From IMG/VR virus record IMGVR_UViG_3300021478_000079, positions 1-36,904 of that record: 36,904 nt of DNA; one strand, written 5' to 3'. Below are positions 8,919 through 32,834 of this stretch, one piece after another. Both the position numbers and the translations under genes were made by a program. Every line of letters begins with the position of its first letter. Positions within the stretch are counted from its first letter, which is position 1. The notes under the pieces are model-generated. The model was given only the letters and a program-made list of their open reading frames with translations. It was not told the DNA's origin and did no database searches. Source of the DNA: a virus.

Positions 8919-9122
8919 TCAATTGTCGTCCTCATACCTATCCAAATAATTTAAAACGAAATCAATTTCAAGTATAGCGCCAGCTTGGAAATAAGGATGC
9001 ATGAAAGCATCTTGTTCGATGATGTCGCGTCGTTGTATTTGAAGCTCGATCGTTAGGTCGTCTTTGAGGGATGCGAAGCAGGGAAGGCAAGCGCAAAGAG
9101 TGAGTAGAAGAATATATTTCAT
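8919..9122 (-). CDS. Small exported protein (67 aa)
   Basis: Begins with a signal peptide (MKYILLLTLCACLPCFAS), giving cleavage after CFA or, less likely, lipid attachment at one of the Cys residues. The mature part is about 50 acidic residues with no known motif. Its ATG overlaps the stop of the upstream Cro-like gene (ATGA). A periplasmic role such as lysis timing or superinfection control is possible. Confidence 0.6.
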   Translation of the reverse strand: MKYILLLTLCACLPCFASLKDDLTIELQIQRRDIIEQDAFMHPYFQAGAILEIDFVLNYLDRYEDDN

Positions 9123-9337
9123 TTTAAATCCTTAATTCTTGGATGGGTGAATGGGCCTAATACGTTATCTTGCTTTACCACACCATTTGTATATGCTTCC
9201 ACAGCAATGGACAGTTTTTTGCTGACCTTATTGACCCCACATAGAACATTTCTAACGTGAGTATGGTGAAAGCCTAACGCTTGAGCCAATTCTTTTGTTG
9301 TTATATTGGAATAAAATAAATATTCTTTTAAATTCAT
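9119..9337 (-). CDS. Cro/CI-like helix-turn-helix regulator
   Basis: 72 residues, GAGGTG ribosome site. Residues 10-50 (NITTKELAQALGFHHTHVRN, then a VLCGVNKVSKKL stretch) form a Cro/Xre-type HTH. It is the first gene of the leftward late operon and faces the start of the rightward early operon, the usual place for a Cro-like switch protein. It probably binds the intergenic region 9338-9437. Confidence 0.75.
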   Translation of the reverse strand: MNLKEYLFYSNITTKELAQALGFHHTHVRNVLCGVNKVSKKLSIAVEAYTNGVVKQDNVLGPFTHPRIKDLK

Positions 9338-9340
9338 GAT

Positions 9341-9372
9341 ATCACCTCATCAGTAAATATAACATATGTGAT
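9341..9372. promoter_or_regulatory. Possible operator between divergent operons
   Basis: Short inverted half-sites ATCAC (9341-9345) and GTGAT (9368-9372) flank an AT-rich spacer just upstream of the Cro-like gene. Symmetry is limited to five bases, so this is tentative. Confidence 0.3.
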
Positions 9373-9408
9373 GATTTTTTTGCTATGAACACTTTTGCGA
9401 CAATTGAC

Positions 9409-9437
9409 TTGCTAAATATTCTGACATTTGCTATATT
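9409..9437 (+). promoter_or_regulatory. Sigma70-like promoter of the rightward early operon
   Basis: TTGCTA (9409-9414), a 17-base spacer and TATATT (9432-9437) precede the first rightward gene by about 95 bases. The leader after it has two small hairpins (CGCAAG/CTTGCG, then TCCG/CGGA). Confidence 0.5.
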
Positions 9438-9531
9438 GAGTCTATTCGCAAGTGCTCCTTGCGTTCCGAGTAACAACGGACAAGTGAGCTGGTGGATTAA
9501 GCAAAGATTTAAAAATTAAGAGGTGATTAAA

Positions 9532-9726
9532 GTGGAATGGCTACATACAGGATCAATAATAGTTTCGGTGATAGGTGCAATCTATTATTTTGGAAGAGAT
9601 ATCAAAACTGATATAGCATTGCAGACTGCGCGTTTAGATACAACAAATGCCAGGCTAGATGCGTCTAATGCAAGATCGGATCAATTATATCAGATGTTTA
9701 TAGATCTGCTTAAGGAAAAGAAATGA
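9532..9726 (+). CDS. Membrane-anchored coiled-coil miniprotein (64 aa)
   Basis: GTG 9532 is chosen because AAGAGGTGA lies seven bases upstream; a GTG at 9523 overlaps that site. One membrane span (SIIVSVIGAIYYFG) is followed by a repeated seven-residue pattern (LDTTNARLDASNARSD) and an LYQMFIDLLKEKK end. Similar small anchored coiled coils ending in LYxMFIDLLK are common in phages and prophages. Function not established. Confidence 0.65.
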   Translation: MEWLHTGSIIVSVIGAIYYFGRDIKTDIALQTARLDTTNARLDASNARSDQLYQMFIDLLKEKK

Positions 9727-9803
9727 ACAGTGAATGGGAGCATACGATTACGATTATTATGTGCATTTTGATTATACAGCTTTTTTTTATGATTAAAAAT
9801 TAA
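9723..9803 (+). CDS. 26-residue single-span membrane peptide
   Basis: The ATG overlaps the preceding stop (ATGA). After seven polar residues almost the whole chain is one hydrophobic span (TITIIMCILIIQLFFMI) ending in KN. Coupled translation and the close fit to the next ribosome site support expression. No family recognised. Confidence 0.45.
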   Translation: MNSEWEHTITIIMCILIIQLFFMIKN

Positions 9804-9816
9804 TGAGAGGAAATAA

Positions 9817-10092
9817 ATGAACTACCGCGAATTTGAACTATACGTTCCAGGGGATGATTATAACCCGGACGATCCGTATGAGCGCATGAAAGATTTAGAG
9901 CACTACGAAGCAAAAGTCGAAAATGCGCAAGACTATTTTGCTGGTTTAGTTGAGGAGCTTTACAAATGTGATGAAGAGCTAGACGTTGATCGAGTAGTTG
10001 ATTTGCTTGAAGAGATTGGCGGTCAACTTTGCGTGAAGATACCAACTAAGATATTGAATATCAAGCGTGATCCAATTTTTGTGAGGCATTAG
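9817..10092 (+). CDS. Acidic hypothetical protein (91 aa)
   Basis: Strong GAGAGGAAAT ribosome site before ATG 9817. The protein is very acidic and largely helical (KVENAQDYFAGLVEELYK; DRVVDLLEEIGGQL), with no membrane segment. An early acidic protein beside recombination genes could be a DNA mimic or inhibitor, but no signature supports a specific call. Confidence 0.65.
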   Translation: MNYREFELYVPGDDYNPDDPYERMKDLEHYEAKVENAQDYFAGLVEELYKCDEELDVDRVVDLLEEIGGQLCVKIPTKILNIKRDPIFVRH

Positions 10093-10230
10093 ATGGCGAA
10101 AAATAGAAGGGTGCCGAAAGTTTTTATGAGAAAAGTCCTTGAAACTGAGGGGCTAGAAAGAAAATTAGGTAAAATGAAAGAATTAAAAAAATCAGTTATC
10201 AAACAAATAGAAGGATTAAAAAGGGTTTAG
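10093..10230 (+). CDS. Basic miniprotein (45 aa)
   Basis: ATG follows the previous stop directly and its own stop lies one base before the RecT-like start. Lys/Arg-rich and helical (LERKLGKMKELKKSVIKQ). Probably a nucleic-acid-binding or helper peptide; family unknown. Confidence 0.55.
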   Translation: MAKNRRVPKVFMRKVLETEGLERKLGKMKELKKSVIKQIEGLKRV

Positions 10231-10231
10231 A

Positions 10232-11086
10232 ATGAATCAATTAGCAGTTTATATGCCAAATTCTGAAGAAATGACCAATTTGCAGGTGATCGCAAGAAGC
10301 GCTGCTACTTCAGGTCTTTATAATGGAATCGGTAGCGAGCAAAAAATCTTGATGATCATACTTTACGCAAGAGAGATGGGGATACCTGTTTTTCAAGCGT
10401 TAAATGGCGGCGTATGGAACATTCAAGGCAAGATTGAGATATCAGCCAGGCTAATGGCCGCAATGATTAGACGGGCTGGCCATAGCATGAAAGTGACCGT
10501 TTGCAATGAAAATGAATGCACGATTGAAGGAACTAGGTCGGATAACGGAGATACGTTCTCTGCTTCTTTCACGATGAAAGACGCTCAAAAGGCAGGGCTT
10601 GCAGGGCGTGGATCGTGGAAATCGTATGCTGAGGATATGCTATATGCAAGGGCAATGAGCAGGCTCGGAAGAAGGCTGTTTCCTGACGTTATTGGAACAG
10701 CATATGTTGAAGGTGAAATAAGAGATTCGCAAATGAAAGTTGCCGATTATGAAGAAGTGCCGACGCATGCATCTGGCAAAGTTGAGAAAGCTCCCGTTGA
10801 AGGAATGAAGCAGTTGGAAGATAAACAAGATGAGGAAGTCGCAAATGAAGAAATAATTTGCAAAGAGCAAGTTCAAGTGATAGAAGATATTTTGAACCAA
10901 TGTGCGCCTAAGTGCGTAGCTAGCTTTAATAAATATTTGCAGAAAGAAGGCATCGACTGCTTAGAAACTTTGCCGTTGCGTTTATTTGAGCACGTTAAGA
11001 GCACTTTGACAGAACAAAGAGACAAATACCAGGGGGCGATGAATGAGCTTGCAGCAGCAGAAGCCGTGGCAGCTTCAAGAAATTGA
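10232..11086 (+). CDS. RecT-like single-strand annealing protein
   Basis: 284 residues. The first 165 follow the layout of RecT-related annealing proteins of phages: EMTNLQVIARSAATSGLYNG, then AREMGIPVFQALNGGVWNIQ, GKIEISARLMAAMIRRAGH, then a GRGSWKSYAEDMLYARAMSR core and LFPDVIG. A linker rich in Glu and Lys leads to a helical C-terminus. These proteins pair complementary single strands in recombination and concatemer formation. No partner exonuclease is recognisable next to it. RusA downstream fits the same pathway. Confidence 0.75.
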   Translation: MNQLAVYMPNSEEMTNLQVIARSAATSGLYNGIGSEQKILMIILYAREMGIPVFQALNGGVWNIQGKIEISARLMAAMIRRAGHSMKVTVCNENECTIEGTRSDNGDTFSASFTMKDAQKAGLAGRGSWKSYAEDMLYARAMSRLGRRLFPDVIGTAYVEGEIRDSQMKVADYEEVPTHASGKVEKAPVEGMKQLEDKQDEEVANEEIICKEQVQVIEDILNQCAPKCVASFNKYLQKEGIDCLETLPLRLFEHVKSTLTEQRDKYQGAMNELAAAEAVAASRN

Positions 11087-11204
11087 AGAAAACTTTAGCG
11101 AGTGGTCAGAGATGGGCTACTCGCTTTCATCATATTTGTTTGAGTTGTTGAAAAAAGAGAGGGACGAAAATGATTATTTGCGACGAAGAATCGGACGAGA
11201 GTGA
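11043..11204 (+). CDS. Overlapping small protein (53 aa)
   Basis: Starts inside the end of the RecT-like gene in another frame (44-base overlap) and ends 35 bases inside the next gene. Helical sequence with WSEMGYSLSSYLFELLKKER. The overlap chain resembles that of the other genes in this operon. Function unknown. Confidence 0.5.
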   Translation: MSLQQQKPWQLQEIEENFSEWSEMGYSLSSYLFELLKKERDENDYLRRRIGRE

Positions 11205-11412
11205 TATTGACTGCAACGATGGTCAATGTGCGCGCTGTAAGAAAAAAGCCAGTTGGGTTGAATTAGAGCTTCCCGACGGTTCGGATCACTGGCTTTGCCT
11301 TCACTGCTTTAAGCTTTATGAAGAAGAATTTCATAATTTCACTGAGATTTTTTTAAACGGCTTTCTTCCATCGAAAGTTTTAAAAGTTGATAAAAATTTT
11401 GCACTTGAATAA
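11170..11412 (+). CDS. Zn-ribbon miniprotein (80 aa)
   Basis: GAGAGGGACG ribosome site before ATG. Two Cys pairs, CARCKKKASWVELE and then CLHCFKLYEE (residues 18-45), form a four-Cys Zn ribbon, preceded by an Asp/Glu-rich start. Likely a small DNA-binding or protein-binding adaptor in the early region. One of several Zn-ribbon miniproteins in this window. Confidence 0.65.
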   Translation: MIICDEESDESDIDCNDGQCARCKKKASWVELELPDGSDHWLCLHCFKLYEEEFHNFTEIFLNGFLPSKVLKVDKNFALE

Positions 11413-11575
11413 AAAGCCTGAATGAATAATTTTATCTATATCCCAGAAAAAAAGAACCGTGATGAAAACATTTAAATTTTTTTTAAGTCGCAATAACATA
11501 TCGAGATTATCCTGTGCCAGCAAAGCTAAGATAATTCGAAATGTTGTTACGGATAAGGTATATTACAAGACAGTT

Positions 11576-11602
11576 AAAAAACCCCGAGTGATTAGCTCGG
11601 GG
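11576..11602 (-). terminator. Intrinsic terminator, minus strand
   Basis: Stem CCCCGAG (11582-11588) and CTCGGGG (11596-11602) with a seven-base loop, followed on the minus strand by TTTTTT (11581-11576). No annotated minus-strand gene lies upstream of it, so it may end a small antisense RNA facing the leader of the replication gene. Confidence 0.7.
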
Positions 11603-11703
11603 CTTACCAATTCAACGGCGTACTGGGATGTTGCGCCAGTCCTTAACACCAAACAAAGGAGGTAAAGCACTTAACAACTTTACAAACTTTAATTTACCAA
11701 AGA

Positions 11704-11768
11704 AAAATAGGTTTCTTCAGATAAGGCATCTTGTTCTACACGAGATCTTATCTGAAGTCTCCTATTTT
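11704..11768. repeat. 65-base interrupted palindrome before the initiator gene
   Basis: Three nested stems: AAAATAGG (11704-11711)/CCTATTTT (11761-11768), CTTCAGATAAG (11715-11725)/CTTATCTGAAG (11747-11757) and ATCT (11728-11731)/AGAT (11743-11746). That makes 23 paired bases around an 11-base loop. It lies about 47 bases before the start of the initiator. It could be an origin structure, an operator or a control element in the leader RNA. Confidence 0.8.
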
Positions 11769-11815
11769 CACAAGACATAATTTTTAATTTATTTCTAGAA
11801 AAGGAGATGCCCAAA

Positions 11816-12799
11816 ATGACTCGCATTCGCACAAAAAAGACAAAATTTTACTTTATAGTTTCTAACGCTACAGCTCAAGATTGTACTCTTTCTTTCGAAG
11901 CACTTGGTCTTTTAACCTATTGCCTTTCAATGTCCGAGGAATGGGAGTTTAAGCCCAAATTGATAGCCAAGAGCAGAGGATGCAGCAGAGATAAAGCCTA
12001 CAAATTGTTCAATGAATTAATCCAATCCTTTCATTGCATTAGAATAAAGATACCGAATCCAAAAGCGAAGGGCCTTCCCGGTGAAGTTGAATATGAAATA
12101 TTCTGTGATGTGGAAGATTGCAAGGCCAGGATCAAAGAATTGGAAACGCAGCCTGTTTTCCTTGAGCATGGTGATAATTTCAAAAAATGTTTTCGACGTC
12201 CGTGTTTTCCGGATACCGATAGTCCGGATCCGGAAAACACGGACGTAATAAATAAACAAGCTAAAGAAAGTAAAATCTTAAGAGAACAAACAAAACAGGA
12301 GCCTCACGAAAAACAGCCTGTTGTTGTTGTTTTTTCTGAAGATGAAAAAGAGAAGCGGCTTCTCTTAGAGAAGTACAATCTTCCTGAAGCATCGATCGAA
12401 TTTTACTTGAACATTTCCCTTCAGCAATTACGAGATTCTTTGCTCGCTTACGACCAATATGCCAAAGATAGAGTGTTAGATAACCCGAAAGGAGCAATAA
12501 GACAAGCGATAATTGGCGCTTGGAAGCCTAATCTAACGAAAGAAGACAAAGTAAATCACAAGCAACATGAGAAAGAAGAACGATCACTCATCGCTGAAGA
12601 AAACAAGAGAATATCAAAACAATTGAGAGCGGGACTAGAGCATAAGTTCGAATATAAAGATTTTAAGATGGTGAAGGGTTTTGAAATATCAGATTCTATG
12701 ATACATCTTTATTATCCGTCTGGTCGCTTTCCGCTTCCATATGAAGAAGTTGAATTTAGAGCTCTTTTGGAATATTACATTAGTAATATATTGAGCTGA
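11816..12799 (+). CDS. Replication initiator, lambda O-like HTH protein
   Basis: 327 residues from ATG 11816. An ATG at 11807 directly abuts the AAGGAG site, while 11816 has a nine-base spacing. Residues 25-70 (SFEALGLLTYCLSMSEEWEF, then KLIAKSRGCSRDKAYKLFNEL) form the winged-HTH domain seen in phage initiators. A Pro/Asp/Thr linker (CFPDTDSPDPENTDV) follows, of the kind common in this family, and a charged helical C-terminus. It should bind the origin and recruit host replication proteins; no helicase loader is recognisable beside it. A 19-bp perfect inverted repeat lies within the linker coding part. Confidence 0.72.
   Translation: MTRIRTKKTKFYFIVSNATAQDCTLSFEALGLLTYCLSMSEEWEFKPKLIAKSRGCSRDKAYKLFNELIQSFHCIRIKIPNPKAKGLPGEVEYEIFCDVEDCKARIKELETQPVFLEHGDNFKKCFRRPCFPDTDSPDPENTDVINKQAKESKILREQTKQEPHEKQPVVVVFSEDEKEKRLLLEKYNLPEASIEFYLNISLQQLRDSLLAYDQYAKDRVLDNPKGAIRQAIIGAWKPNLTKEDKVNHKQHEKEERSLIAEENKRISKQLRAGLEHKFEYKDFKMVKGFEISDSMIHLYYPSGRFPLPYEEVEFRALLEYYISNILS
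12196..12246. repeat. Perfect 19-bp inverted repeat inside the initiator gene
   Basis: Arms 12196-12214 and 12228-12246 are exact reverse complements, both beginning or ending in the ACGTCCGTG/CACGGACGT element. CCG/CGG inside adds three more pairs, leaving a six-base loop. It lies in the part encoding the Pro-rich linker, where lambda-type initiator genes carry their origin. Candidate replication origin. Confidence 0.85.
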
Positions 12800-13104
12800 T
12801 GCCCAAGCTATATTATAGACCATTTTCCCGGCGTCAGGAAAATGATCGACACATATGCTACGATCATATCGAGCAAGACCTCGGAATGATAGATCATATC
12901 GGTGGATTCAAAGTAATGGCACGAAAGGATAAAATGAAAATACCATGCTTCTTCTTTTTTCATGATTGGCATCTTCTCCCAGATCTTGGACTTTTGTATT
13001 ATCGCGGACTCCTTAAGGCACATACTGCCTTTTACATATGCCAAAAGTGCGGAAAATTAAAAATTAAATTGATTGAATTCATGTATGAAAATACGAATAC
13101 TTAA
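12799..13104 (+). CDS. Zn-ribbon protein with MKIPxFxxFHDW element
   Basis: 101 residues; ATG shares its A with the initiator stop (TGATG). The second half reads MKIPCFFFFHDWHLLPD, then YICQKCGKLKIK, a two-Cys half ribbon. The same MKIP...HDW...CxxC order recurs in the gene at 13234-13419, so the two are paralogues; this one has an extra 46-residue N-terminus. Function unknown. Confidence 0.6.
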   Translation: MPKLYYRPFSRRQENDRHICYDHIEQDLGMIDHIGGFKVMARKDKMKIPCFFFFHDWHLLPDLGLLYYRGLLKAHTAFYICQKCGKLKIKLIEFMYENTNT

Positions 13105-13237
13105 ATGCCCAAAATGTAAAATTGATACCAACTTACGTAGCGTTTCGCCATTGCTAATAGCAATACTTTATGTATGCGATGAATGTAATTGTAATTATTA
13201 CTATTATGAACTGGCGTATGAAGAAATTGAACGATGA
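13085..13237 (+). CDS. Zn-ribbon miniprotein (50 aa)
   Basis: ATG 13085 lies within the end of the previous gene and its stop overlaps the next start (ATGA). CPKCK near residue 9 and CDECNCNYYYYE near residue 31 give a four-Cys ribbon. Middle member of a three-gene Zn-ribbon cluster. Confidence 0.6.
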   Translation: MKIRILKCPKCKIDTNLRSVSPLLIAILYVCDECNCNYYYYELAYEEIER

Positions 13238-13419
13238 AAATACCGCGCTTTGGTCTCTTCCATGATTGGAAATTTGTTTCTATTTATAATTTTATTGATA
13301 CTTCCTATAAAAGTAGGGCTGATAGCTGTATATTGACATACTTTTGCTGCCGATGCAAAAAGATTAAACAAAAAACACTATATGCATCCGGTCATTTAAA
13401 AATGGAAGATTTCGAGTGA
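13234..13419 (+). CDS. Zn-ribbon protein, paralogue of 12799-13104
   Basis: 61 residues beginning MKIPRFGLFHDWKFV, then FCCRCKKIKQKTLY. It matches the second half of the 12799-13104 product in order and spacing. Overlaps the RusA start (GTGA). Function unknown. Confidence 0.6.
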   Translation: MKIPRFGLFHDWKFVSIYNFIDTSYKSRADSCILTYFCCRCKKIKQKTLYASGHLKMEDFE

Positions 13420-14030
13420 AAATAATAATCCCAGGCGATCCCATACCTAAAGCAAGCGTTAGATTAGGTAAACGAGGAGCATATGATTCGCAAAAGTTTG
13501 AACGAAGCCAAGTTTCATGGAAAATGAAATTGGCTTTACGTGAACAAAATGGAAAAATGGTTGAATCACAGGGTATTTTTGTGTCATTTTTGTTCAAATT
13601 CCTGCCTATCGGGACATCAATATTGGAAAAAAATATGTGTTTATGGGGATTAAAGGAACATGATGTAAAACCGGATTTTGACAATCTTTGCAAATTTTAT
13701 TGCGATTCTGGTAACGGCATTCTATGGAAAGATGATGCTAAAATATCTAAAGGTCAGTGGCATAAGAAATTTTCAAACTTTCCCTGTACAATTATAACCT
13801 ATAATGCGATAAAAAAAATTACTATGAACACAGAGCTAGAAAAAGTTATAAAAGTCTTTACGCCAGAGCAAGTTTTGGAGCTAATCGATGATTTTACGCC
13901 GATTATGCAAAGCTGCGAGGACGATTTTCTTGAGAATCGAGAAGAATTTTTCCTCCCGGTTCTGGCCTCCAGACTGGTGATCTTTGCTAATAAGTGGTCG
14001 AAGAAGCTAGGTAAGATTCAGGATGCGTGA
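13416..14030 (+). CDS. rusA: RusA-type Holliday junction resolvase with C-terminal extension
   Basis: 204 residues from GTG 13416. Residues 1-131 are RusA: IPGDPIPKASVR at the start and the catalytic block DVKPDFDNLCKF, then NGILWKDDAKIS. D87 and D89 plus D106/D107 match the metal-binding aspartates of the family, and K93 the conserved lysine. It cuts branched DNA left by recombination before packaging. RusA is usually about 120 residues; here residues 135-204 (EKVIKVFTPEQVLELIDDF, then REEFFLPVLASRLVIFANKW) form an extra helical domain, possibly a fused separate gene. A weak internal ATG at residue 137 lacks a ribosome site. Confidence 0.9.
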   Translation: MKIIIPGDPIPKASVRLGKRGAYDSQKFERSQVSWKMKLALREQNGKMVESQGIFVSFLFKFLPIGTSILEKNMCLWGLKEHDVKPDFDNLCKFYCDSGNGILWKDDAKISKGQWHKKFSNFPCTIITYNAIKKITMNTELEKVIKVFTPEQVLELIDDFTPIMQSCEDDFLENREEFFLPVLASRLVIFANKWSKKLGKIQDA

Positions 14031-14193
14031 CGTAATTTGCAAGTTGACAAATGAAGAATTGGGAAGCTCGTTAGTTATGACAAATAAGACTATGTTCATT
14101 TTCGATCGTGACGGCGATTTCATTACAGAATTCGACGCTAGGTTTTGTCCTGTGTGCGGAGAAATACTACAAAATGAGGTGGCTGATGAATAG
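14023..14193 (+). CDS. Small protein with CxxC motif (56 aa)
   Basis: ATG overlaps the end of the RusA gene by eight bases. Contains IFDRDGDFITEFDARFCPVC, a half Zn ribbon at the end. The stop codon lies in the first copy of a tandem duplication (14176-14231). Function unknown. Confidence 0.5.
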   Translation: MRDVICKLTNEELGSSLVMTNKTMFIFDRDGDFITEFDARFCPVCGEILQNEVADE

Positions 14194-14231
14194 ATTGCTT
14201 TCAGAGGTGGCTGATGAATAGATTGCTTTCA
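14176..14231. repeat. Exact tandem duplication of 28 bp
   Basis: 14176-14203 and 14204-14231 are identical and adjacent. Each unit carries a GAGGTG ribosome site, an ATGAATAG start context and the beginning of a gene, so the duplication created a dead start followed by the live one at 14214. Confidence 0.9.
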
Positions 14232-14366
14232 AATGTATTCAGTCATTTTTTATGTCCAGGCTGCAATCAATTGAATCTATATACCTATGCAAATCCATTA
14301 AGCGAGTATTGTTCGAAGTGTTCATTTAAACAACTAGAACAAAAAAAAGGACAAGAAAATGCATAG
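14214..14366 (+). CDS. Zn-ribbon miniprotein (50 aa)
   Basis: Starts in the second copy of the 28-bp duplication with GAGGTG six bases upstream. CPGCNQLNLY (residues 14-23) and CSKCSFKQLE (33-42) give a compact four-Cys Zn ribbon. Overlaps the next gene. Role unknown; similar to the other small Zn ribbons of the early region. Confidence 0.6.
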   Translation: MNRLLSNVFSHFLCPGCNQLNLYTYANPLSEYCSKCSFKQLEQKKGQENA

Positions 14367-14433
14367 ACTGCTTTTAACGGCCTGCCTTTGCGTTTTGACT
14401 GCTTGTGGAAATATGCATGGGATCAATGAATAA
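14359..14433 (+). CDS. 24-residue lipoprotein
   Basis: MHRLLLTACLCVLTACGNMH has a short basic start, a hydrophobic core and a lipobox LTAC-G. After cleavage only nine residues would remain. Overlaps both neighbours (ATG inside the previous end, TAATG with the next start). Tiny phage lipoproteins can be Rz1-like outer-membrane spanins or exclusion factors; here there is no nested Rz. Confidence 0.5.
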   Translation: MHRLLLTACLCVLTACGNMHGINE

Positions 14434-14984
14434 TGGAAGAATTGAGCGCTTGTAAATTCTATATTGCAAACATCAAATTGGTGGGATACGGTCAAACTCA
14501 AAGTTACCAATGTGTTTGTCAAAAATGTAAAAAATTGTTCTTCAATATCACTACAAAACGAAACTTGGAAGATTTATTTTGTTCATGGTGTGAGCCAGAT
14601 GAATCATTGTTAACGGAAGAAAATTTTTCAGACGTTAATTTTGTTGGAAACATCATAGGATGGGAAATTAAATGTACCGCCATTGAAAAAAAACGTTCTT
14701 TCTATAATTATAAAAAAGTATATAAGAGAGATGGTTATCAATGCCAGTATTGCGGTTACTCTATGAGTCTATATAACGATTTTCGTGCTTTGCACGTAGA
14801 TCATATAAAACCATGGAGTGGAGCTGGTGGCAATTCCTTAACATATCTAGTAGTTTCCTGTGCGGAATGCAATTGTCATGCAACAAATAAATGGTTCAAT
14901 TCTTTTATGGAAAAGAAAGAATATGTAAATGCAAGAAATGCAGAAAAACAATTTCAAAAGCAAAAAAAGAAACAGAGGCACTGA
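14433..14984 (+). CDS. HNH endonuclease
   Basis: 183 residues. A Cys-pair finger (CVCQKCKKLFFN; CSWCEPD) comes first. The HNH domain reads RDGYQCQYCGYS, then LHVDHIKPWSGAGG and CAECNCHATNKW, giving the paired CxxC structural zinc and the DH metal-binding site. It is located in the early operon among miniproteins. Most likely a free-standing homing enzyme, though HNH proteins can also help packaging. Confidence 0.88.
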   Translation: MEELSACKFYIANIKLVGYGQTQSYQCVCQKCKKLFFNITTKRNLEDLFCSWCEPDESLLTEENFSDVNFVGNIIGWEIKCTAIEKKRSFYNYKKVYKRDGYQCQYCGYSMSLYNDFRALHVDHIKPWSGAGGNSLTYLVVSCAECNCHATNKWFNSFMEKKEYVNARNAEKQFQKQKKKQRH

Positions 14985-15137
14985 ATGAAAAGATATTTAT
15001 CACTGTTCTCATTTTGTATATTGACTTCTTGTGGCTACATGTCATGGCCTGAATGCTTAGAATTGATGGAGCCCGTCGAGGAATTGATTGTGAGCGAAAT
15101 TGAAAAGGAGAACGAAGATGCCGTTATTGCCAGGTAA
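14985..15137 (+). CDS. Small lipoprotein (50 aa)
   Basis: MKRYLSLFSFCILTSCGYMS carries a signal peptide with lipobox LTSC-G; the mature 35 residues are strongly acidic (EPVEELIVSEIEKENED). The second lipoprotein within 700 bases. Overlaps the following gene. Candidate for envelope function such as lysis or superinfection exclusion. Confidence 0.55.
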   Translation: MKRYLSLFSFCILTSCGYMSWPECLELMEPVEELIVSEIEKENEDAVIAR

Positions 15138-15264
15138 AAAGAACATTGGGAAAAATATAGAAAACGAACAGGGGGAAGGAAAACCGCATAAGCAAGCTGT
15201 TGCTATCGCTCTTAATGTCGCACGTAAATCAGGTGCTCATATCAAGAAAAAAGGAAAAAAGTAA
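15118..15264 (+). CDS. Small basic phage protein, KPHKQAVAIAL family
   Basis: 48 residues. The order MPLLPGKKNIGKNIENE, then GKPHKQAVAIALNVARKSG and a Lys tail is a pattern I recognise from many phage genomes (MPL, K-rich, IG/ISxNI, GxPxKQAxAIALxxAR). AAAAGGAGAACG ribosome site. The function of the family is not known; likely nucleic-acid or virion associated given the charge. Confidence 0.65.
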   Translation: MPLLPGKKNIGKNIENEQGEGKPHKQAVAIALNVARKSGAHIKKKGKK

Positions 15265-15473
15265 TGATTACAGAAACAAAGATAGAAGAATATTTCACAT
15301 ATCATAATCCAGAAGGAATAGACCCTAAAAGATTCGAAATAATTAGAGAATCAGCTAAGAAATTAGCAAAAGATATTCTCGAAAATGGAGGAAACTCAGA
15401 CGAAATATGCAAATCAATACAATCACTACGAATCGTTGTATATCATGCAATCGCTTCTATTGTTTTACCATAA
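15264..15473 (+). CDS. Acb2/Tad1-type cyclic nucleotide sponge (anti-CBASS/anti-Thoeris)
   Basis: 69 residues, start overlapping the previous stop (TAATG). The pattern YFTYHNPEGIDPKRFEIIRE, then SAKKLAKDILENGGNSDE and IQSLRIVVYHAIASIVLP agrees with the small helical-hairpin proteins grouped with Acb2 and Tad1 (FxYHxP..RY..IR..A..LA..I....P.S.E...AI..L.......ANA.IA). Acb2 hexamers sequester cyclic di- and trinucleotides made by CBASS, and some relatives bind gcADPR of Thoeris. Here the usual ANAAIAR end is degenerate (YHAIASIVLP). Identification is by remembered pattern and has not been searched. Confidence 0.75.
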   Translation: MITETKIEEYFTYHNPEGIDPKRFEIIRESAKKLAKDILENGGNSDEICKSIQSLRIVVYHAIASIVLP

Positions 15474-15486
15474 AAGGAAAAAAGTA

Positions 15487-15729
15487 ATGAAGAAAGACGA
15501 AATCGAAACTATTAAAGACCGCCTTTACGAAATCTATGCATCGGTATGCGATGAACAGACTGAAGTTGCATGTTTTAAAATCGGTAAGCTGATCGGTGAA
15601 TTTGATATGATTTTAGCTGATGATGAGGAAGAGGGCGAAGATCAGCAAGAACAAAGAGCTAATATCCAAATAAACAAACAGGTTTTAGATTACATTCAAA
15701 AACTAATGGACAAAGATAATGGATCGTGA
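15487..15729 (+). CDS. Acidic helical protein (80 aa)
   Basis: ATG 15487 is favoured by AAAAGGAAAA upstream, not the longer frame that reaches back into the previous gene. Helical, with an acidic central stretch (DDEEEGEDQQEQ). Unknown; may work with the sponge gene it follows. Confidence 0.6.
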   Translation: MKKDEIETIKDRLYEIYASVCDEQTEVACFKIGKLIGEFDMILADDEEEGEDQQEQRANIQINKQVLDYIQKLMDKDNGS

Positions 15730-15856
15730 AATCAGAAAAATAAAGAAGACAGCTAAGAAAGAAGTTAAAGAACTCGGTAAGTTAGAAGCCATGGACAAGA
15801 AACGGGATAAAGCTTGTGAATTAGGAGCTAAAGAAATGCGGAAGAAAAAGAAATGA
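15719..15856 (+). CDS. Basic helical miniprotein (45 aa)
   Basis: Overlaps both neighbours. MDREIRKIKKTAKKEVKELG, then a LEAMDKKRDKACELGAKEM stretch and KKKK end: one long basic helix. Similar short Lys-rich coiled proteins occur beside the KPHKQAVAIAL family in other phages. Function unknown. Confidence 0.55.
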   Translation: MDREIRKIKKTAKKEVKELGKLEAMDKKRDKACELGAKEMRKKKK

Positions 15857-16140
15857 TTGATTGCATCCGATACAAGCCTGTCAACAAAGGTTCCCTTCTT
15901 GGCTTCGCCGATATCGCTGTTGAAGGTCTTCCGCTTGTGCATATTTACGGATGTGGAGTTTTCCAAAAAGAAGGAAGACGATGGGTAACGATGCCATCCA
16001 GAGAATGGATAGATGAAGAAACGGGGTTGAAAAAGTTCTATGCCTACATAAGATTAGCAGAGCCGGGTAGCATGTATCAATTCTCTCATGATGCCATGCA
16101 TTGCGTGCTTCCTCATATCGATCCTCACATGATACTTTAG
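15853..16140 (+). CDS. SpoVG-like small DNA-associated protein
   Basis: 95 residues, ATGA-coupled. The sequence KPVNKGSLLGFADIAVEGLP, then a CGVFQKEGRRWVTMPSREW stretch has the SpoVG-type layout (beta strands, then a strand ending in W/FVxMPS). Phage relatives occur in early operons beside recombination genes. SpoVG proteins bind DNA or RNA; the phage role is unknown. Last gene of the rightward operon. Confidence 0.5.
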   Translation: MIDCIRYKPVNKGSLLGFADIAVEGLPLVHIYGCGVFQKEGRRWVTMPSREWIDEETGLKKFYAYIRLAEPGSMYQFSHDAMHCVLPHIDPHMIL

Positions 16141-30476: not shown

Positions 30477-32834
30477 TTAAATATTTGTTAGTCTTCCAGC
30501 GCGTCTAATATGCAAAATTTGAGCATCGATCTGCACTGGTGATTGTTGTTCTATTCCATTCATTTGCGCGTTATTAAATGTGTATTGCAAAGTGATAAAG
30601 TTGGATCTTGTAGGACAAAAAACCCTCTGCCAAAACTTCGACCCATCAATTTTATTAAAGCCAGCGGATGATGTAGGAATTATTGAGTTAAAGAATGTAT
30701 CTGGAGTGTCTGGCGAAAGACCATCATCTATTGCATTGAAAGGCGCAAGATTTGATTTGTCTTCATCGTTATAATCCAGATAAACATTTAACGAAATTGC
30801 TCCTGATTCTGTAGAATTCATTAAGATATCGAGGTAGCCCAATTGAATATTCTGGCCCTCATCCATAAAATTAAACTTCTTGCTAACGATAGAGAAATTA
30901 TCCAGAATGTTTATGAGACCACCGCCTTGATAAGTAAGTAGGCCACCAGTCGTTGCAATGCTAAAAGCATCATCGGTAGGATTGTAAGTGTAGAGCGTAA
31001 ATGTGTTAGCGTTTAAGACATTTACTCCATAAACTCCACCGTTTAAAAACGAAAAATTGCCAACGATTCCACTAATTCCAATTATCGAGCCATCGTCGCC
31101 CGGCACAATATTTGTTACTAAGTTATGATTTGGGCTTGTTATCGTGATGGGGCTTCCACCTACGATATTTGTAATAAATAACGTTGTGTCATTGGTTATA
31201 GCGACGCCAATGCTAGGCGTGGTTCCTGCAAGTTTAAGAATGAAGCCTTGTTGATTTCCACCAAGAATAATGGGAGAACCAAAAGGATCATCAATCCAAG
31301 GGAAGGGGCAATTAATCCAAGCTTGTGGGGTATTAAGCCATGTTCTACCTGATTGTTCTTGATAATTGCCAAGAGCGGTTAAACTATCATTAAACAATGC
31401 CCAACTATCGTTTTCATAGTTATAAACCAAGCGAATATTAGGAAATATTCGAGAGGCACTAGCTACAAGACCATCATAAAAACCCGTCAGCGGAATAGTC
31501 CAATATGCCAAACGATTTGGGAAATCCCTAATTCCCTGGACTCTAGCGACGCCATTATTTAACCCATTGAATTTGTAAACTAAATCAGGGATCTTAATAT
31601 CGATTCTTTCGCTTTTATAACTATCGCATTCAACAATGCCTTTATCGCCTATGCCAACTAATGATGTATCAAATTGAACGCTTGAAAATGTGCTTTCTGT
31701 TCCTAATTCTGAATTTACTCGTTCTATCTGAAAAGGGGCTATTGATCTACCTGTATATCGAAGCTGCCAAGTACTTCGCTCACAATAGACAATTAAATTG
31801 TCTCTAACAAATCCGATGCTTACAATATCTTCGCTTGTAGGTATATCAAGAAAGCCTCCCTGACCTCTAATATCACTCCTCCAAGAACCCGCTGCTGGCG
31901 GCCCTGCTGTAAAAGCTATGAAAGGATTGCCGATCGTGCTCCATCTAATGCGATTGGAATAATTGAGGCTACTTGCTGACGTTGGCCCTGGCCCTTCCCA
32001 AGTATTAAATGTAACCATTCGGCCGCGAAAAGGTAGATTGCAAAGCCAGTTAGTTAAGAAATTGGTTGCGTCGATTTGGCTCCAAGCCGACGGAAAGAAA
32101 TTAACCCATGTTGTGCCATCTGTTATACGAGGAGGGTCTGCTGATGCGGCAAAAGATCCACTGTTATTTGTTACCCAAAATAACTTGGCGCCTGTTCCGA
32201 AAGGGCTTTGTGCAGTTCCACCAATCCAATAATTTGTTGACCAAAAAAAATTTATTCCCGCGACATTAGCATGTGCGGCATTCCATGTCGTGCCAGGGAT
32301 AAACTGCTCAAACATTCCTAAGCCTGCGTTGTAATCATAGGCATAGTTTTGGTCAAAAAAGATTGTTTGATCATTAGCGCTATTGGCAAGTTCACGTATT
32401 CTAATGCCCATAACAGGCAAACCAGGAAAGAATTGAACCGCTGTTAATGCATTGGATCCGGTGATTGTTAAAAGCCCTGTAGTAAGATTGAGCGTTGCTG
32501 TTCCTATGCCATTATTCAAAAGATTGATTAATCCTGATTCGCCTGGCGTGCCTGGATCAGTAAAAATAGCCGTTCCAACAGTAAATGAGGATATGCCTGG
32601 CTGAATTGGATTGGGAATAATAGTCGTTGAGAAATTGCCCGCTCCGTCTGTGGTGCCTAAATTAAGCTGAAGGCGCCCAAGCAAAGAAACGCCACTCTTT
32701 CTAATGATCTTTTCACGCCATACAATAGCGTTTTGAAGCGTAGGGTAAGCATCATTCGGCAATAAGAATTCTTGCCTCTCTTGGACTAGGCCTGTGCTTG
32801 GACCTGTGATTGGAAGGGATTGATAGCCTGCCAT
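30477..32834 (-). CDS. Tail hub / tubular B-like protein
   Basis: 785 residues, beta-rich. The start NDAYPTLQNAIVWREKIIRK, then SGVSLLGRLQ resembles the pattern that opens T7 gp12-like and P22 stabilisation proteins (N..v..G...KR.G). Propeller-like blades follow, with DIPTSEDIVSIGFVRDNLIV, YCERSTWQLRYTGR, then a domain (SPNHNLVTNIVPGDDGSIIG, then GNFSFLNGGVYGVNV) like those in the 35 kb genes. Forms the tail tube or plug. The HNH gene upstream overlaps its first 83 bases. Confidence 0.75.
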   Translation of the reverse strand: MAGYQSLPITGPSTGLVQERQEFLLPNDAYPTLQNAIVWREKIIRKSGVSLLGRLQLNLGTTDGAGNFSTTIIPNPIQPGISSFTVGTAIFTDPGTPGESGLINLLNNGIGTATLNLTTGLLTITGSNALTAVQFFPGLPVMGIRIRELANSANDQTIFFDQNYAYDYNAGLGMFEQFIPGTTWNAAHANVAGINFFWSTNYWIGGTAQSPFGTGAKLFWVTNNSGSFAASADPPRITDGTTWVNFFPSAWSQIDATNFLTNWLCNLPFRGRMVTFNTWEGPGPTSASSLNYSNRIRWSTIGNPFIAFTAGPPAAGSWRSDIRGQGGFLDIPTSEDIVSIGFVRDNLIVYCERSTWQLRYTGRSIAPFQIERVNSELGTESTFSSVQFDTSLVGIGDKGIVECDSYKSERIDIKIPDLVYKFNGLNNGVARVQGIRDFPNRLAYWTIPLTGFYDGLVASASRIFPNIRLVYNYENDSWALFNDSLTALGNYQEQSGRTWLNTPQAWINCPFPWIDDPFGSPIILGGNQQGFILKLAGTTPSIGVAITNDTTLFITNIVGGSPITITSPNHNLVTNIVPGDDGSIIGISGIVGNFSFLNGGVYGVNVLNANTFTLYTYNPTDDAFSIATTGGLLTYQGGGLINILDNFSIVSKKFNFMDEGQNIQLGYLDILMNSTESGAISLNVYLDYNDEDKSNLAPFNAIDDGLSPDTPDTFFNSIIPTSSAGFNKIDGSKFWQRVFCPTRSNFITLQYTFNNAQMNGIEQQSPVQIDAQILHIRRAGRLTNI

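Follow-up and report, generated by a model that had tools for sequence, protein, structure and literature searches.

A long palindrome within a phage replication initiator gene: a probable in-gene origin built as a mirror-image iteron array

The initiator gene and its palindrome

The DNA analysed here (the window) is a viral contig of IMG/VR, 36,904 bp in length. It carries genes in the order RecT - initiator - RusA, with a long inverted repeat inside the initiator gene:

10232-11086, + strand: gene of a RecT-like annealing protein (context; PHROG match)
11807-12799, + strand: replication initiator gene, 330 aa, with a winged-helix N-terminal domain, a linker and a C-terminal domain (PHROG matches, relatives and structure model)
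12196-12219, + strand: left arm of the palindrome (24 nt, 22 of them paired; the outer 19 nt perfect)
12223-12246, + strand: right arm of the palindrome, pairing with the left arm
13416-14030, + strand: gene of a RusA Holliday-junction resolvase (context; PHROG match)

The 330-aa protein matches PHROG families annotated as replication initiation and DnaD-like. An AlphaFold2 model was confident for the winged-helix domain at approximately residues 10-120; confidence was ~50 at the palindrome-encoded residues 130-147 and below 50 at residues 158-176. The closest structural neighbours, at Z 6.4-7.2, were N-terminal domains of three kinds (DnaB, RepA_N initiators and DnaD), and other winged helices scored equally well. 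The RepA_N structures 4pql, 4pt7 and 5kbj (Z 6.6-7.1) were likewise level with generic winged helices, and the modelled resemblance to RepA_N, DnaD and DnaB is thus of a generic, supportive kind. Foldseek returned generic winged helices and no match at E <1e-3, and a sequence search of the PDB yielded chance matches only.

In a Pfam scan up to E 10, HTH_36 was the sole match (E 0.053, under Pfam's cut-off); neither RepA_N (PF06970) nor Phage_rep_O (O-protein) was detected. The DnaB_2 C-terminal domain (PF07261), present in 5 of 33 relatives, was also not matched. PF13730 (HTH_36) was matched by 23 of the 33 aligned relatives. Given the missing profile matches, the initiator does not belong to RepA_N, Phage_rep_O or DnaB_2 by sequence. 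By homology it can be grouped with the HTH_36-type initiators, though under Pfam's own cut-off. A search of viral contigs with this single protein found no relative, scans of genome contigs found no close cellular relative, and a terminase search gave no useful clue to the host.

The two exact 19-base arms that a preliminary description had placed in the initiator linker were confirmed as perfect reverse complements (12196-12214 and 12228-12246). Extended inward, they form 24-nt arms that are 92% complementary, with 2 mismatches and 3 nt between the arms. The repeat occupies codons 130-147 of the gene, between the winged-helix domain and the low-confidence linker and C-terminal part. It is present in one copy, and no other perfect inverted repeat (loop ≤40) in the 36,904-bp record exceeds 12 bp; in dinucleotide shuffles of the record (n=20) the maxima were 10-13 bp. 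When the peptide was kept and recoded with the codon usage of the phage, none of 20,000 synonymous versions reached the score of 19 (maximum 16); therefore, the palindrome is not accounted for by the peptide that it encodes. Minority codons are frequent within it (CCG four times, CGA, CGT, ACC and AGT). The palindrome is far above chance and above codon constraint. An intrinsic terminator was rejected, as there is no U-tract beside the stem.

An exact 17-mer of the arm was matched in viral contigs by two single-arm occurrences, in L005 and L006, which lie among other phage genes and were taken as chance. Elsewhere in the record, a 28-bp unit GAGGTGGCTGATGAATAGATTGCTTTCA is perfectly duplicated in tandem at 14176-14231, just 3' of the RusA gene, and a 27-bp unit CAAATTCGTATCAACTTTAACTTGATC occurs twice at 1551-1603 with a 96% match. 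The long gap 5' of the initiator gene contains a GC-rich hairpin followed by TTTTTT (11576-11606, - strand) as well as an imperfect inverted repeat of 31 nt (11704-11768, 77%). By analogy with pSK41, these two features together could be signs of an RNA antisense to the leader of the initiator gene; no promoter support was found for such an RNA at 11576-11768, and the terminator scan did not list the hairpin.

Iterons in the linkers of related initiators

Distant relatives of the initiator were identified by tblastn in phages and plasmids (best E 5e-12), with motif columns common to them; they include S. aureus plasmids with an annotated replication initiator. Most of the 12 genes fetched carry repeated CCGGATACGGAAAAT-type units in 15-bp steps in the linker, 3' of the HTH. 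When the survey was widened across viral contigs, 170 genes were usable, of which 104 remained once redundancy was removed. Direct repeats with a 15-bp step were present in the linkers of 63% of these 104 relatives and in 0 of 520 codon shuffles. The unit consists of a CCGnnnnCGG core and an A-tract, 15 bp in all, and lies at the same linker position. The core CCGTATCCGG is translated as NPYPG in phage L010 but as TVSGK in phage L020; since it is read in differing frames across phages, the DNA and not the peptide is conserved and apparently under selection. The earlier suggestion that DNA determines the peptide of the linker is thus supported, and so is that of a candidate origin inside the initiator gene, by the 15-bp iterons at the same place in related initiators.

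The phage studied here lacks the head-to-tail order of units, which is not universal in the family and was not taken as defining; the best 15-bp-step direct repeat of its linker scores 7, not above background. Inverted repeats with a score of at least 11 were found in the linkers of 25% of the 104 relatives, compared to 2.5% in shuffles, and this phage has the highest inverted-repeat score among the relatives surveyed. The iteron cores are themselves dyads.

An iteron matrix built from 45 relatives, with this phage and its close relative L019 left out, was run on both strands of the whole record. Together with the cores read from the sequence, it gave the following units:

12194-12203, - strand: degenerate outer core ACGGACGTCG, read from the sequence, one 15-bp step leftward
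12204-12218, - strand: iteron unit CGGTATCCGGAAAAC, inverted, in the left arm (matrix match of 13.0 bits)
12224-12238, + strand: iteron unit CCGGATCCGGAAAAC, in the right arm (20.3 bits, the best matrix match in the record)
12239-12248, + strand: degenerate outer core ACGGACGTAA, read from the sequence, one 15-bp step rightward

A further match (12219-12233, - strand, 14.4 bits) covers the palindrome centre; the next unrelated one is at 31484 (15.9 bits), and no second cluster of matrix matches was found anywhere in the 36.9-kb record. Between the inner cores (12209-12218 and 12224-12233) the step is exactly 15 bp, which is the register of the family. This register is extended on both sides by the ACGGACGT half-cores at 12239-12248 (+) and 12194-12203 (-), and both outer cores match in half only. 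The palindrome is thus a four-unit iteron array (two good and two degenerate units) with its left half reversed, A-tracts outward and one dyad at 12221. The contrast drawn at first between a single palindrome and iterons was therefore not quite right: the arms are the iterons of the family, inverted and in the 15-bp register, and the palindrome is no alternative to iterons but an array whose halves face each other.

The association of iterons with this type of initiator was also recovered from DNA patterns alone. Of the 35 viral loci retrieved with a pattern for an outward-facing iteron pair, 32 lie in an ORF that encodes the N-terminal domain of this initiator type; for a direct iteron pair, 80 of the 90 viral loci examined were in ORFs with that domain. 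In a limited literature search, which is weak evidence, the 15-bp in-gene iterons of the HTH_36-type initiator family were not found described as such.

Downstream of the array, relatives carry TACTAA-type motifs in repeated form. Among 74 genes, TACTAA was present in 44 (15.6 expected) and CACTAC in 27 (2.2 expected). In L007-L175, TACTAA, CACTACTAA and AGTACTGA are repeated 100 bp after the iteron array, often at a spacing of 15-16 bp. Its sequence suggests a conserved element for unwinding or for the recognition of single strands, perhaps DnaA-trio-like. It is degenerate in this phage.

Iterons serve control too in other systems. An autoregulatory operator, through which the initiator would chiefly repress its own gene, at transcription or translation, with the origin located elsewhere, would accord with the iteron nature of the palindrome units, with the dyad as the usual form of an operator and with the other hairpins in the 394-bp gap 5' of the gene. 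However, the palindrome lies 390 bp into the gene, where the family has multi-unit arrays, and the record holds no other cluster of matrix matches. We therefore regard an operator of this kind as improbable; control and origin roles are compatible and not exclusive.

Close relatives and the symmetry of the array

Three relatives were compared with the phage initiator. L196 is a full-length homologue (33% identity overall, 37% in the C-terminal domain) with a palindrome at the same place, CCGACGCCTGATTTTCCGTCGCCGG-ATGTC-CCGTCGACGGAAAATCAGTCGTCGG, whose 25-nt arms are paired at 23 of 25 positions around a loop of 5. Its geometry is shared with this phage but its sequence is different. L196 was retrieved by the outward-facing-pair pattern, so that its inner symmetry was selected for, whereas the long outer arms and the homology were not. 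It is the one full-length homologue known with a comparable palindrome.

L019 is the closest relative by the N-terminal domain (67%). No indel occurs across the aligned palindrome; an imperfect dyad and the unit register are kept, but the strong palindrome is absent. In three of the four units CGGA is changed to AGGA in register, as judged by eye and without statistics. In L019 1801-2460 (= L176 from 3001), a one-base deletion relative to this phage just past the linker puts the N-terminal and C-terminal parts in different frames (an assembly error, decay or frameshifting). The expectation that relatives with the same initiator would share the palindrome thus held in part: it is lost in L019, where the register is kept, and present in L196 in a different sequence.

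The third relative, L324, was found by a search with the C-terminal domain; it has a different type of N-terminal domain and no palindrome. Hence the palindrome tracks the type of N-terminal domain and not the C-terminal domain, though few cases are known. The C-terminal domain (PVVV ... WKPNLTKE) is joined to quite different N-terminal domains in L324 (2485-3459) and L196 (7599-8633), and from these sequences the halves of the initiator seem to be exchanged like modules.

The comparison with L019 bears on whether the palindrome acts as DNA or as RNA. In this phage, the palindrome RNA folds at -41.9 kcal/mol (z -9), as a hairpin working in the mRNA would, for example in ribosome pausing or in protection of a processed message. 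Such folding is, however, expected of any DNA palindrome, there is no Rfam match, and the iteron matrix accounts for the sequence. The aligned RNA of L019 folds no better than shuffles (z 0.04). Because L019 keeps the register without a strong palindrome or RNA hairpin, DNA binding is favoured, and a role in RNA appears highly improbable. An inserted mobile element of the REP/RPE type within the coding frame was rejected, with practically no probability left to it: although the palindrome fits the frame, it is present in a single copy in the record, shows no indel relative to L019, and its arms match the iteron of the family.

As to the symmetry itself, hairpin-templated correction or template switching may have made a semi-palindromic iteron array perfect, in which case the units would be functional and the symmetry not. 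The dyad nature of the cores, by which arrays readily become near-palindromic (as in a quarter of the relatives), and the absence of strong symmetry in L019 favour this explanation, but L196, with the same geometry in another sequence, would require either selection or another, independent event. We give it a probability a little short of even; it bears on the symmetry alone, is compatible with a role in the origin and takes nothing from the probability of that role. Conversely, a single-dyad array may constitute a functional class, in which symmetric initiator binding, and perhaps cruciform extrusion, loads helicases both ways from one compact site, and which would be selected in the initiator lineage of this phage and L196 independently of the unit sequence; we consider this rather unlikely. 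As L019 shows at the sequence level, perfect symmetry is not obligatory. The symmetry may strengthen dimer binding, or hairpin-templated repair may have produced an array no less functional than direct repeats.

A candidate origin inside the initiator gene

We propose that the palindrome is, very probably, the initiator-binding part of a replication origin located inside the gene of its own initiator. Judging by the iterons, it would be a known kind of origin in a mirror-image arrangement and not a new kind. In-gene iteron origins are already known; an array that is compact and has one long dyad represents a variant of them. The array is flanked on the right by:

12247-12300, + strand: A+T-rich flank, candidate unwinding region (12250-12299 is 74% A+T)

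By analogy with lambda O, SPP1 gp38, the pSK41 and pPR9 Rep proteins and PLE RepA, the winged-helix N-terminal domains of several initiator molecules would bind the cores from both sides. The resulting complex would open the A+T-rich DNA rightward (12247-12300), and the C-terminal domain would bring in the helicase-loading machinery. The linker peptide RPCFPDTDSPDPENTDV would be a passive translation of the DNA site. GC skew does not support an origin: it follows the coding strand, and the check suggested in the preliminary description was uninformative. At 9001-16000 the skew is positive over the block of + strand genes; outside that block it is mainly negative, and what it marks is the early gene block, not an origin.

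The closest known systems are the HTH_36-type initiators of phages and plasmids with in-gene iteron arrays (for example Geobacillus phage GBSV1 ORF3, S. aureus plasmid pV030-8 and the pPR9/pUSA03 hybrid Rep; PMC5703833), with which this phage has in common a related N-terminal domain (tblastn/HMM), the linker site, the 15-bp unit and the A-tract. Their arrays are mostly direct repeats, whereas the halves of the array described here face each other, and the C-terminal domain of this phage is of another type, without a match in phage or plasmid records. A winged-helix N-terminal domain is also present in RepA_N replicons (pSK41, pTZ2162) and in the V. cholerae PLE RepA. The pSK41 origin is located within the dispensable linker of the rep gene (PMC5703833), and RepA_N and PLE iterons are semi-palindromic about an A-tract (PMC5703833, PMC7145576). 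However, this phage has no PF06970 match and a different iteron sequence, and the PLE origin is in a non-coding region, unlike the in-gene site found here.

The gene of lambda O carries iterons and A+T-rich DNA in its middle, each iteron being an imperfect inverted repeat (PMC7466680). The ori-lambda iterons are ~19 bp, whereas this phage has a 15-bp register and one overall dyad. In SPP1, the repeats bound by gp38 are located in gene 38 itself, and oriL includes an A+T-rich unwinding element (PMC6316719); the oriL repeats are direct and those of this phage mirror-image. In-gene origins thus have precedents in pSK41 and pPR9-type Rep (PMC5703833), lambda O (PMC7466680) and SPP1 gene 38 (PMC6316719). 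By analogy, the location of the palindrome is consistent with an in-gene origin of the lambda O type and with initiator binding, and the palindrome would work like the origins of lambda O and of RepA_N/pPR9 plasmids without membership of the initiator in Phage_rep_O or RepA_N by sequence.

If the proposed origin is correct, the origin of an uncultivated phage can be read from its sequence. In many initiators of phages and plasmids, the unusual Pro/Asp/Thr/Glu/Asn linker would then be mostly the sequence of a DNA-binding site in an arbitrary frame. As related initiator genes carry direct arrays in some cases and mirror-image arrays in others, it becomes testable whether the orientation of iterons affects initiation and its direction.
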